NCBI RefSeq assembly: GCF_000256565.1
Contig: NZ_AJHH01000547.1
Location: 1-33,678 of the forward strand
Length of the DNA: 33,678 nucleotides
From: Herbaspirillum lusitanum P6-12
GTDB taxonomy: Bacteria > Pseudomonadota > Gammaproteobacteria > Burkholderiales > Burkholderiaceae_D
Direction of reading: 5' to 3'
In this document: positions 13,639 to 26,660 of the stretch, one piece after another
Layout of the letters: every line of letters starts with the position of its first letter
How positions within the stretch are numbered: position 1 is the first letter of the stretch
Program-made: the position numbers and the translations under genes
Notes under the pieces: generated by a model
The model's input: only the letters and a program-made list of their open reading frames with translations
What the model was told of the DNA's origin: nothing
Database searches by the model: none

Positions 13639-14874
<1,236 letters not shown>

Positions 14875-21730: not shown

Positions 21731-22110
21731 CGCCATGTAAGTGATGAGCACTCACGATATTTTTGGACCGAACAGCCACTCTTTGAGTGCAGTGCTCAAG
21801 TCTTCCCAAACCGGCCAAGTGCGGACTTTCATGTACGACCAACTTTATTTGTGGCGTCTGTCATTAGCCGGAGCTACGTAGACCATCCCGACCAACTTTG
21901 ACTAAAAGCACTATGCCCAGTAAATCGATCAGTTAGCCGCCATACTCCCGACCGACTTTATTCGCTGCAGTCAACCATGACCACGCTGCATGCCATCGCG
22001 CTAAGACGATCTTGATCGGGGAGATGTTGCCGTCGGTTTCTCCCGAAACACTCTCCAGGTCGACCTGTTTGCAATGACCATTCATCAGGAGTGCACGGCA
22101 TAGGGCCCGC
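21731..22110. other. Degenerate left flank of the heat-shock unit
   Basis: No intact gene. It holds a small hairpin (CACTC/GAGTG, 21777-21789), a distant inverted repeat GAGCACT/AGTGCTC (21746-21752, 21791-21797), and three imperfect copies of GACCAACTTTATT at 21837, 21890 and 21950, the last two each preceded by TTAGCCG. A 50-residue open frame on the minus strand (21933-22085) begins at an ATG that overlaps the hsp20 stop (TGATG). It has coding-like residues (ISPIKIVLARWHAAWSWL) but no recognised family. The stretch looks like decayed mobile or foreign DNA. Confidence 0.35.
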
Positions 22111-22510
22111 CTTTGAAACGCGCCTGGACCTTATCCGCTTGAACTGCAGAGGGCAGCCTGAGACGGCGCTCAAACTGTCCGGAAAAGAACTCGCTGAACA
22201 GCGCGTCTTGATGCTGGTTCCTTTTTTCGCCTTTTATTACCAAAACATCGTCATCTAGAAACGTTTCAACATCCTTCTGCTCGAGCCCTGCCAGTTCAAC
22301 GGAGATCTGGAATTCGTCTTCGTTTTCCTGTACTGCGATCGCAGGCCAGTTCAGTCCCCCTCTTCGACTTGGCAACCCGTCAAAGCCAGACCACAATTCA
22401 TCGAAGAGACGATTGATGTCCCGATGCAATAGCTGAAAAGGTTCCCGTTGTGCCGGACTCACAGCTACGTCGCGATTTTTACTCCAAGGGAGTAAATCAG
22501 TCACATTCAT
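22085..22510 (-). CDS. Small heat-shock protein Hsp20, C-terminally truncated (copy A)
   Basis: A 141-residue alpha-crystallin-type chaperone that would hold unfolding proteins in the cytoplasm. The start at 22510 follows GGAGGT at ideal spacing (MNVTDLLPWSKNRDV). The alpha-crystallin domain runs from about residue 60 (NWPAIAVQENEDEFQISVEL, then AGLEQKDVETFLDDDVLVIKGEKR) to RRLRLPSAVQADKVQARFK. There the family sequence stops at the edge of the repeat unit, replaced by GGPYAVHS. The last beta strands (usually an FKDGVLTLTLPK-like segment) and the C-terminal I-x-I motif needed for oligomer assembly are missing. It may still fold poorly or be a relic. A sigma32-like promoter and a structured leader lie upstream. 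Confidence 0.85.
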   Translation of the reverse strand: MNVTDLLPWSKNRDVAVSPAQREPFQLLHRDINRLFDELWSGFDGLPSRRGGLNWPAIAVQENEDEFQISVELAGLEQKDVETFLDDDVLVIKGEKRNQHQDALFSEFFSGQFERRLRLPSAVQADKVQARFKGGPYAVHS

Positions 22511-22615
22511 GAGATACCTCCATAAAGGAATAAGAACGCCGTAAGCGGTCGTATTACGGCCAAAAAGTCCCGCTTGGGCGCCGACCCTGCGCCCCGCATC
22601 ACTTTCTTGTGATGC
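22511..22615 (-). promoter_or_regulatory. Candidate ROSE-like RNA thermometer in the hsp20 leader (copy A)
   Basis: The leader can form four hairpins in order: GCATCAC/GTGATGC (22596-22615, 6-nt loop), GGGCGC/GCGCCC (22576-22594, 7-nt loop), GCCGTAA/TTACGGC (22538-22560, 9-nt loop), and ATTCCT/AGGTAT (22514-22531) with a U-U mismatch. The last covers part of the GGAGGT Shine-Dalgarno sequence just before the ATG. Several hairpins ending in an imperfect one over the ribosome-binding site is the ROSE layout. The sequence of the last hairpin is not the classical ROSE motif. Confidence 0.6.
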
Positions 22616-22619
22616 TATT

Positions 22620-22648
22620 AAAATAGTTCGTGCTCTCAAATTTTCAAG
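22620..22648 (-). promoter_or_regulatory. Sigma32-like promoter of hsp20 (copy A)
   Basis: On the minus strand CTTGAA (22648-22643) is followed after 16 bp by CTATTTT (22626-22620). This fits the heat-shock sigma factor -35 (CTTGAA) well and the -10 (CCCCATNT) loosely. It would start the transcript at the first leader hairpin. The groES promoter has a very similar CTTGAA...CTATTTT arrangement. Confidence 0.55.
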
Positions 22649-22719
22649 ACCTCTGTACCGCCCTCGCGGTTGCTGATACGAAGAATTGGAATTCATTTTT
22701 TTTCTTGGAGATGCCACCG

Positions 22720-23457
22720 ATGAAAACTTTCAATGCAGTTTCTGCACAGATAAAATTAATCAATCTTCCTTTATATGCCGTCAGTGCCACGGCAGTAAAT
22801 ATCTCTGATAGCCCCCTCTTGGTTTTCCTTCATTGGCACGGCTTTCGTCGTAGCACGCCACTCAACATTGAGGGCGTAAAAATTCCTTCCCGGGCGGTTC
22901 CCAGCTCGGCGCTGCAGTTCAGGGGGCCTTGGTTGAACCGAACTTCGCAAGAAGAAGAGTTGCTTGATCTTGCCTGGCGATTAGGGGCTTGGAGCGTGGA
23001 GCGCTTGCAACTTCGACCTTGCAACGAACCAGGTGCTCCGACGAGCGAAGCCTACGCATGCCGTATCGCCTTTGGTGAAAATCCTGCGGACTATCCATCT
23101 GAAGTTACGCTTGCCGACGAGGTACCGGAGCGCCGTGAGCTGATGGAATTGGCGGCCAGGAAAGGCTATGTCCGATGGCTGTTTCATCCGGTCAAAGGAG
23201 GTCTCTGGAAGGGCGTCGGATATACCGATGATTCGCTGGATATGGACGGTGGCCGGGGGACGGATTGCCCTGTCAGCCCTTTAGCCACGCGAAATAAGCG
23301 TCGCTTTCTCTTTGAAACGCGCCTGGACCTTATCCGCTTGAACTGCAGAGGGCAGCCTGAGACGGCGCTCAAACTGTCCGGAAAAGAACTCGCTGAACAG
23401 CGCGTCTTGATGCTGGTTCCTTTTTTCGCCTTTTATTACCAAAACATCGTCATCTAG
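22720..23457 (+). CDS. Unknown protein, copy A, with C-terminus read into antisense hsp20
   Basis: A 245-residue frame from the ATG at 22720 (GGAG nine bases upstream). Residues 1 to about 195 are identical to copy B; the last 50 come from reading the reverse strand of hsp20 copy B after the repeat junction (LFETRLDLIRLNCRGQPETA onward), so this end is an artefact of the duplication. No family was recognised. The shared part starts MKTFNAVSAQIKLINLPLYA, has SPLLVFLHWHGFRRSTPLNI and a Trp/Arg/Glu-rich middle (LAWRLGAWSVERLQLRPCNE). No signal peptide or clear membrane helix. It overlaps hsp20 copy B by 177 bp tail to tail, which could cause antisense interference. Confidence 0.55.
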   Translation: MKTFNAVSAQIKLINLPLYAVSATAVNISDSPLLVFLHWHGFRRSTPLNIEGVKIPSRAVPSSALQFRGPWLNRTSQEEELLDLAWRLGAWSVERLQLRPCNEPGAPTSEAYACRIAFGENPADYPSEVTLADEVPERRELMELAARKGYVRWLFHPVKGGLWKGVGYTDDSLDMDGGRGTDCPVSPLATRNKRRFLFETRLDLIRLNCRGQPETALKLSGKELAEQRVLMLVPFFAFYYQNIVI

Positions 23458-23709
23458 AAACGTTTCAACATCCTTCTGCTCGAGCCCTGCCAGTTCAACG
23501 GAGATCTGGAATTCGTCTTCGTTTTCCTGTACTGCGATCGCAGGCCAGTTCAGTCCCCCTCTTCGACTTGGCAACCCGTCAAAGCCAGACCACAATTCAT
23601 CGAAGAGACGATTGATGTCCCGATGCAATAGCTGAAAAGGTTCCCGTTGTGCCGGACTCACAGCTACGTCGCGATTTTTACTCCAAGGGAGTAAATCAGT
23701 CACATTCAT
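23281..23709 (-). CDS. Small heat-shock protein Hsp20, C-terminally truncated (copy B)
   Basis: Identical to copy A from the start at 23709 to QARFK, then EKATLISRG and stop, read from the end of copy A of the unit. At 142 residues it lacks the same C-terminal strands and I-x-I motif as copy A. That both copies break at the same base is unexpected for a simple tandem duplication, where the outer copy should remain whole. It has the same GGAGGT ribosome-binding site, thermometer-like leader and sigma32-like promoter, so both are probably transcribed on heat shock, away from groES. Confidence 0.85.
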   Translation of the reverse strand: MNVTDLLPWSKNRDVAVSPAQREPFQLLHRDINRLFDELWSGFDGLPSRRGGLNWPAIAVQENEDEFQISVELAGLEQKDVETFLDDDVLVIKGEKRNQHQDALFSEFFSGQFERRLRLPSAVQADKVQARFKEKATLISRG

Positions 23710-23814
23710 GAGATACCTCCATAAAGGAATAAGAACGCCGTAAGCGGTCGTATTACGGCCAAAAAGTCCCGCTTGGGCGCCGACCCTGCGCCCCGCATCA
23801 CTTTCTTGTGATGC
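23710..23814 (-). promoter_or_regulatory. Candidate ROSE-like RNA thermometer in the hsp20 leader (copy B)
   Basis: Same four hairpins as copy A, shifted by 1,199 bp: 23795-23814, 23775-23793, 23737-23759 and the Shine-Dalgarno hairpin 23713-23730. Confidence 0.6.
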
Positions 23815-23818
23815 TATT

Positions 23819-23847
23819 AAAATAGTTCGTGCTCTCAAATTTTCAAG
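23819..23847 (-). promoter_or_regulatory. Sigma32-like promoter of hsp20 (copy B)
   Basis: Same CTTGAA (23847-23842) and CTATTTT (23825-23819) pair as in copy A. Confidence 0.55.
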
Positions 23848-23918
23848 ACCTCTGTACCGCCCTCGCGGTTGCTGATACGAAGAATTGGAATTCATTTTTT
23901 TTCTTGGAGATGCCACCG

Positions 23919-24548
23919 ATGAAAACTTTCAATGCAGTTTCTGCACAGATAAAATTAATCAATCTTCCTTTATATGCCGTCAGTGCCACGGCAGTAAATA
24001 TCTCTGATAGCCCCCTCTTGGTTTTCCTTCATTGGCACGGCTTTCGTCGTAGCACGCCACTCAACATTGAGGGCGTAAAAATTCCTTCCCGGGCGGTTCC
24101 CAGCTCGGCGCTGCAGTTCAGGGGGCCTTGGTTGAACCGAACTTCGCAAGAAGAAGAGTTGCTTGATCTTGCCTGGCGATTAGGGGCTTGGAGCGTGGAG
24201 CGCTTGCAACTTCGACCTTGCAACGAACCAGGTGCTCCGACGAGCGAAGCCTACGCATGCCGTATCGCCTTTGGTGAAAATCCTGCGGACTATCCATCTG
24301 AAGTTACGCTTGCCGACGAGGTACCGGAGCGCCGTGAGCTGATGGAATTGGCGGCCAGGAAAGGCTATGTCCGATGGCTGTTTCATCCGGTCAAAGGAGG
24401 TCTCTGGAAGGGCGTCGGATATACCGATGATTCGCTGGATATGGACGGTGGCCGGGGGACGGATTGCCCTGTCAGCCCTTTAGCCACGCGAAATAAGCGT
24501 CGCTTTAAGTATCAGTTGGGCCGGACTGATCGCATCATTATTTCTTGA
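23919..24548 (+). CDS. Unknown protein divergent from hsp20 (copy B)
   Basis: A 209-residue protein with no family that I recognise; start at the ATG 23919 with GGAG nine bases upstream. The first 195 residues match copy A, and the last residues (KYQLGRTDRIIIS) come from the unique right flank, so this copy may have the original C-terminus. Residues are mixed, with Trp/Arg-rich segments (HWHGFRRS, LAWRLGAWSVERLQLRP, GYVRWLFHPVKGGLWKG) and no signal peptide. It is divergent from hsp20 and co-directional with groES, 144 bp upstream of it. Position suggests a role in protein quality control or stress, but nothing in the sequence names one. Confidence 0.6.
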   Translation: MKTFNAVSAQIKLINLPLYAVSATAVNISDSPLLVFLHWHGFRRSTPLNIEGVKIPSRAVPSSALQFRGPWLNRTSQEEELLDLAWRLGAWSVERLQLRPCNEPGAPTSEAYACRIAFGENPADYPSEVTLADEVPERRELMELAARKGYVRWLFHPVKGGLWKGVGYTDDSLDMDGGRGTDCPVSPLATRNKRRFKYQLGRTDRIIIS

Positions 24549-24581
24549 TACATTTTGTTACAAAACGAGCGTTAAGGGACT

Positions 24582-24609
24582 CTTGAAAAAATTTTAGGGG
24601 AAACCTATT
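24582..24609 (+). promoter_or_regulatory. Sigma32-like promoter of groES-groEL
   Basis: CTTGAA (24582-24587) and CCTATT (24604-24609) are separated by 16 bp, close to the heat-shock sigma factor consensus. No CIRCE element (TTAGCACTC-N9-GAGTGCTAA) was found in the leader, so HrcA control is not indicated. Confidence 0.6.
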
Positions 24610-24692
24610 TTTCAATTCGCCGAAATCCCGGCTAGGACATCAAGCGTCCTATTCACTTTCAAATGATCTGTAACCACTTTGGAGATTGAAAA

Positions 24693-25010
24693 ATGAAAAT
24701 TCGTCCCCTCTATGACCGGGTTATTGTTAAGCGAATTGAACAGCAGCGCCAGACAGCCTCAGGAATTGTTATTCCGGATGCGGCCTCCGAAAAGCCGGAG
24801 CAAGGCGAGGTACTTGCCGTCGGTAACGGACGGGCTCTGCAAGATGGCACTATTCGTCCTCTTCAAGTCAAGGTCGGAGATAGCGTCTTGTTCGGAAAAT
24901 ACGCCGGTCAAACTGTGAAAGTTGACGGTGAGGAGCTTCTGGTCATGCGCGAGGAAGACATTTTTGGCGTCCTGAAGCAGGATAAAGAAGCATTGAAGAA
25001 AGCTGCTTAA
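24693..25010 (+). CDS. groES: Co-chaperonin GroES
   Basis: GroES caps the GroEL ring in the cytoplasm. At 105 residues it is slightly longer than usual (about 97), the extra being a C-terminal [11 protein letters not shown] extension. The N-terminus [18 protein letters not shown], the mobile loop ([20 protein letters not shown]) and [20 protein letters not shown] are typical. GGAG precedes the ATG. groEL follows 30 bp after the stop, in one operon under the sigma32-like promoter. Confidence 0.97.

Positions 25011-26660
<1,650 letters not shown>

Follow-up and report, generated by a model that had tools for sequence, protein, structure and literature searches.

Does the leader of the small heat-shock gene hsp20 of Herbaspirillum lusitanum P6-12 act as an RNA thermometer and, if so, to which class does it belong? 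The gene is located on the minus strand of the stretch of DNA analysed here (33,678 nt, in the following called the window). An earlier note had described its leader as a candidate RNA thermometer of ROSE layout, with three perfect hairpins behind a sigma32-like promoter and a fourth, imperfect one over the Shine-Dalgarno sequence (SD). The structured leader of a small heat-shock gene stands, but not the ROSE type, the SD-masking hairpin or a clear melting. A putative non-ROSE thermometer on this leader is possible, its specific support being limited to the gene context. From the promoter to the third hairpin, the elements are as follows (energies for each hairpin alone, at 37 °C):

22642..22648, minus strand: sigma32-type -35-like element CTTGAAA, 7 of 7 positions against the consensus used
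22621..22627, minus strand: -10-like element ACTATTT after a 14-nt spacer, 110 nt upstream of the ATG, 5 of 7 positions against the consensus used
22596..22615, minus strand: hairpin 1, GCATCAC/GTGATGC, 7 bp, 6-nt loop, -9.4 kcal/mol
22576..22594, minus strand: hairpin 2, GGGCGC/GCGCCC, 6 bp, 7-nt loop, -11.2 kcal/mol
22538..22560, minus strand: hairpin 3, GCCGTAA/TTACGGC, 7 bp, 9-nt loop, -7.4 kcal/mol

The combined site CTTGAAA-14-ACTATTT (22648..22621, minus strand) agrees at 12 of 14 positions with the sigma32 consensus used, which resembles the version in PMC3669281. Sites scoring at least 12 of 14 occur nine times on the two strands of the window taken together, and two of the nine are the two copies of the hsp20 site. 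By its agreement with the consensus, the hsp20 promoter is predicted to be of the sigma32 type, as had been proposed. Hairpin 1 begins 5 nt past the -10 element, so that from the presumed start site the whole leader would be transcribed.

All stems of hairpins 1–3 are perfect, which verifies the three hairpins of 7, 6 and 7 bp reported before. When the 105-nt leader was shuffled 5000 times with its dinucleotides preserved, three such hairpins never arose (two were found in 27 shuffles, one in 553). A 105-nt segment moved along the window in steps of 15 bases had three hairpins at 5 of 2239 positions, four of these five representing the leader and its second copy (see below). At 27 other gene starts of the window, with frames chosen by hand, three hairpins never occurred, and two of the starts had two. 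The only other 105-nt stretch in the window with three perfect hairpins of at least 6 bp starts at 13996 (about 13996-14100). The fold of the 121-nt transcript has -39.9 kcal/mol (z -2.55; 2 of 200 shuffles equally low). Without the coding bases the structural excess of the leader is smaller (z -1.65 with 100 shuffles; z -2.00, p 0.032 with 500 shuffles), and for the 5' domain, i.e. the leader with its last 25 nt removed, it amounts to z -2.54 (p 0.014). The hsp20 leader is real and has three strong hairpins after a heat-shock-type promoter. At 50 °C hairpins 1, 2 and 3 are still folded, with -6.4, -8.6 and -5.5 kcal/mol.

Inverted repeats of this kind could also be DNA operators for a repressor instead of RNA hairpins, and hairpin 1, as DNA a perfect palindrome of 20 bp, lies at the predicted start site, where an operator would usually be expected. 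Yet a genome-wide search (4.9 Mb) yielded no other exact copy of it and three with one mismatch (backward control 0), and an operator role for hairpin 1 was rejected on these grounds. Within the window, hairpin 3 does not recur at up to two mismatches, three dissimilar palindromes follow each other in a row, and the palindromes differ in the leaders of the relatives. We consider the operator explanation very improbable.

Membership in known thermometer families was examined with Rfam. At gathering score the window gave no match, and up to E 10 over 22450-22720 neither ROSE nor FourU nor any other thermometer family appeared, only weak irrelevant matches. As a positive control, the Rfam ROSE model (RF00435) matched 12 of 12 tandem loci with 50.7 to 72.1 bits. 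These are the loci L110-L115, L123-L125 and L128-L130, at which a relative of the window's hsp20 is preceded by another hsp20, and ROSE is located ahead of the first hsp20. ROSE was absent from seven relatives that have no neighbouring hsp20 within the stretch examined (L109, L036, L118, L126, L127, L131 and L134), from L148-L151, from 20 hsp20 loci in the family to which the window belongs and from the other hsp20 of the same genome (L001). The motif U(U/C)GCU, which pairs imperfectly with the SD and defines ROSE according to the available text of PMC3669281, is missing from the 105-nt leader. ROSE elements are further characterised by two to four hairpins before a small heat-shock gene, and three stable and one weak hairpin are found here. 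Thus, the hairpin count fits the proposed ROSE layout, but Rfam score and motif do not, and membership in ROSE was rejected; the earlier remark that this is not the classical ROSE sequence was correct. FourU was rejected as well, given the lack of an Rfam match and a sole UUUU run 56 nt before the ATG that is not paired with the SD in the minimum free energy (MFE) fold.

What remains to be considered is the region of the SD and of the start codon, the latter placed at 22510-22508 (minus strand), which corrects the earlier note:

22517..22521, minus strand: Shine-Dalgarno sequence GGAGG, from the sequence
22514..22531, minus strand: the fourth hairpin proposed earlier, ATTCCT/AGGTAT, barely stable by energy evaluation
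22506..22526, minus strand: weak alternative hairpin of the MFE fold, whose lower stem holds the start codon and whose upper part holds GGA of the SD, -4.6 (30 °C) and -3.5 (37 °C) kcal/mol

The fourth hairpin was said to mask the SD. Its stability is about zero, with -1.9, -0.5, +0.4 and +1.1 kcal/mol at 20, 30, 37 and 42 °C, and both a three-pair UCC/GGA register with -2.8 kcal/mol at 37 °C and the start-codon hairpin at 22506-22526 are favoured over it. In the MFE fold UUUAUGGA pairs with UC-U-CAUGAA, with the start codon and half of the SD engaged. Locally folded shuffles had the start codon equally or more paired in 99 of 2000 cases, which places it in about the top 5%, and the MFE of this local region is ordinary (954 of 2000 shuffles as low). 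To open the SD, 6.2 kcal/mol are needed at 30 °C and 4.7 kcal/mol at 42 °C. The supposed masking is at chance level for the SD (with the upstream part shuffled, 85 of 300 sequences were equally hard or harder to open) and likewise from SD to AUG (103 of 300). For five of the 12 ROSE leaders the same SD-opening test with shuffled controls gave 84 to 195 of 300; as even known ROSE leaders are not set apart by it, the test is no means of recognising a thermometer. A clear melting transition was not seen on folding at 15–60 °C, which did not distinguish the ROSE controls either. With 21 coding bases included, the mean unpaired probability of the SD is 0.27 at 20 °C and climbs to 0.47 at 60 °C; with 62 it is flat (0.33-0.38). 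SD accessibility separates neither the ROSE controls nor the window leader from shuffles and was discarded as a diagnostic for thermometers. The shallow predicted opening with temperature is a point against reading the leader as a thermometer.

At the DNA level, no real relatives of the leader were found beyond its own two copies, neither in 392 genomes of the family nor in the plasmid collection. The window's hsp20 has distant protein relatives only, the best of them with 42% identity among 300 genomes of the order and 48% among 249 of the phylum. In f186, a family of the same order (56 genomes), five loci (L147-L151) encode full relatives with 38-41% identity to the window's protein and no second hsp20 within the stretch examined; L152-L155 from the same search belong to another hsp20 type, with a match starting inside the gene, and were excluded from the leader counts. 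Each of the five is preceded by a sigma32-like site matching at 12-13 of 14 positions, and their leaders, 69-120 nt long, have strong 5' hairpins. Their 5' domains are more structured than over 95% of the shuffles (p 0.004, 0.022, 0.020, 0.046 and 0/500), and for the whole leaders the excess is less uniform (p 0.008, 0.014, 0.092, 0.084 and 0/500). The architecture of the window leader is found again in these five relatives, although their leaders cannot be aligned to it. Only L147 and L148 are near enough for mutual alignment, in which, as judged by eye, the pairing of hairpin 1 survives two one-sided changes. SD accessibility in L147-L151 lacks a common temperature response. Against a general pattern, other stand-alone relatives differ: the 29-nt leader of L036 has no structural excess (p 0.33), and neither have L134, L126, L127, L131 and L109 over the 105 nt before the ATG (z -0.35 to +1.95).

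The SD may also be masked from the coding side. For 8 of 24 genes of the subfamily (L109, L111, L112, L113, L123, L134, L147 and L149) its pairing with the codons of the conserved N-terminal LIPW motif is stronger than in 95% or more of the versions recoded with synonymous codons; the mean rank is 0.33. These genes are mutually related, and the pairing is therefore only a lead; the window gene has no such pairing between SD and coding start (rank 0.97). In Burkholderiales, the genes of this hsp20 subfamily that stand alone might have a non-ROSE thermometer class of their own, unlike the ROSE of their tandem relatives, with a sigma32 start, a thermostable 5' domain of several hairpins without conserved sequence, and a start region masked by a local hairpin (window) or by LIPW codons (L147, L149). 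We regard such a class as quite improbable.

For the window leader itself we tentatively favour, with somewhat less than even confidence, a modest non-ROSE thermometer with control at two levels. A sigma32-type promoter would give rise to an hsp20 mRNA with a leader of about 105 nt and thereby switch the gene on, as the first level. Three stable 5' hairpins would stay closed over the physiological temperature range, and the weak structure downstream of them would cover the start codon and part of the SD. At the second level, this proximal hairpin, probably comparable to the single-hairpin thermometers of cyanobacterial small heat-shock (sHsp) genes more than to ROSE, would open with heat and modestly raise translation. 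The role of the 5' hairpins may be to insulate this proximal hairpin, to protect the mRNA at its 5' end, or both.

Alternatively, the hairpins would serve as a 5' structure that stabilises the mRNA or insulates it, without thermometer function, and sigma32 alone would provide the heat control. Stem-loops at the 5' terminus lengthen the life of an mRNA by protecting it against 5'-dependent decay. The folded state of hairpins 1–3 at 50 °C agrees with such a role, as does the finding that in the window and in the five relatives the structural excess lies in the 5' domain and not at the SD, the masking of which is at chance. On the other side, RNA thermometers are most commonly found on small heat-shock genes (PMC4166951, in the part available), and ROSE-type leaders, too, combine stable upstream hairpins with one labile hairpin (PMC3669281, likewise in part). 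A 5' structure without thermometer function is somewhat less probable than the two-level control.

The modest thermometer proposed here also has to be seen in the light of the organisation of the locus, the following features of which include two that the earlier note had missed, an exact repeat holding the leader and an hsp20 without its C-terminal end:

22111..23307: first copy of the 1197-bp direct repeat
23310..24506: second copy, the same as the first in every base and separated from it by two extra bases
23710..23847, minus strand: second copy of promoter and leader, letter-for-letter the same as 22511-22648
22085..22510, minus strand: hsp20 frame of copy 1 (141 aa), without its C-terminal end, Pfam HSP20 match over positions 3-79 of 102
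23281..23709, minus strand: hsp20 frame, copy 2, truncated at the repeat boundary
22720..23457, plus strand: orfX copy, 3' end cut at the repeat boundary
23919..24548, plus strand: orfX, 209 aa, divergent from hsp20, relatives annotated 'diguanylate cyclase'
24582..24610, plus strand: sigma32-like site CTTGAAA-15-CCTATTT ahead of groES, 13 of 14 by consensus match
24693..26660, plus strand: groES (24693-25010) and groEL (25011-26660), the second groESL of the genome

The repeat comprises the promoter, the leader, the 5' part of hsp20 and most of orfX; the leader is therefore present twice. Both hsp20 copies are cut at the identical base, which is the repeat boundary. The Pfam HSP20 match stops at position 79 of 102, whereas in the one relative tested of the five, L147, with a full-length hsp20, it extends to 101. 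What is missing we take to be the C-terminal extension together with the last part of the alpha-crystallin domain, and with a truncated product the unit may no longer be useful in this genome. Hence, hsp20 and its leader could be the decaying remnant of a rearranged and duplicated stretch, now without function; besides the common cut and the lost protein end, the lack of any match to this hsp20 in 11 genomes of the same genus and of an hsp20 next to orfX at 12 other orfX loci would fit this explanation. But promoter, SD and 135 open codons are intact, the two copies are identical, and, as the assembly consists of 820 contigs, repeat and truncation may be an assembly effect. The repeat may be a true tandem duplication, circle-derived sequence or such an effect. 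We hold a functionless remnant to be unlikely. To the left of the repeat (21731-22110) no long open frame was found. A segment of 176 bp within it (21809-21984) contains AAAGTTGGTCG-type repeats and is 81% identical to the same-genus genome G563 (L135 1794-1965), without an obvious long frame there.

On the divergent side, orfX has no Pfam or NCBIfam match, despite the 'diguanylate cyclase' annotation of its relatives. It occurs in 12 other genomes of 392 and in nine plasmid records, and the order orfX-groES-groEL (23919-26660 here) recurs in both plasmid records inspected and in L067 of the same genus. The site ahead of groES has the top sigma32-like score of the window. The other groESL of this genome is on C660. 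GroEL of the window has matches of 81-84% on replicons of Paraburkholderia, Burkholderia, Caballeronia and Variovorax.

If the leader is heat-responsive, as the proposed two-level control would demand, a small heat-shock gene of Burkholderiales carries a thermometer other than ROSE, and within one hsp20 subfamily the leader differs with gene order, being ROSE in tandem pairs and another structured leader on genes that stand alone. If it is not, strong leader hairpins on a heat-shock gene are by themselves no evidence of a thermometer.

Compared with known systems, the window leader shares with ROSE (RF00435) the sHsp gene, the leader of about 100 nt, several hairpins, a weak structure at the SD and the type of heat-shock promoter. 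It differs in that its hairpins are perfect, whereas a perfect hairpin of at least 6 bp is lacking, by the same count, in 10 of the 12 true ROSE leaders, and in that ROSE precedes the first hsp20 of tandem pairs, whereas the window gene stands alone and resembles the second of a pair. With FourU it has in common the position on sHsp leaders and the pairing of the SD, and it differs by its only UUUU at -56, unpaired with the SD in the MFE fold. In contrast to the hsp17 thermometer of Synechocystis and the short sHsp thermometer of Anabaena, there are three additional stable hairpins upstream, the upper stem has only 2 bp, and half of the SD lies in the loop. The likeness to these cyanobacterial elements, which is one of predicted folds, consists in a single weak hairpin with the start codon in the lower and the SD in the upper part and a bulge between them. 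In the Anabaena thermometer it is mainly the start codon that is blocked (PMC4166951, in the part available). Furthermore, the window leader has a UCCU ahead of its SD, 19 nt before the ATG, and UCCU is the anti-SD of the hsp17 thermometer (PMC4477652).
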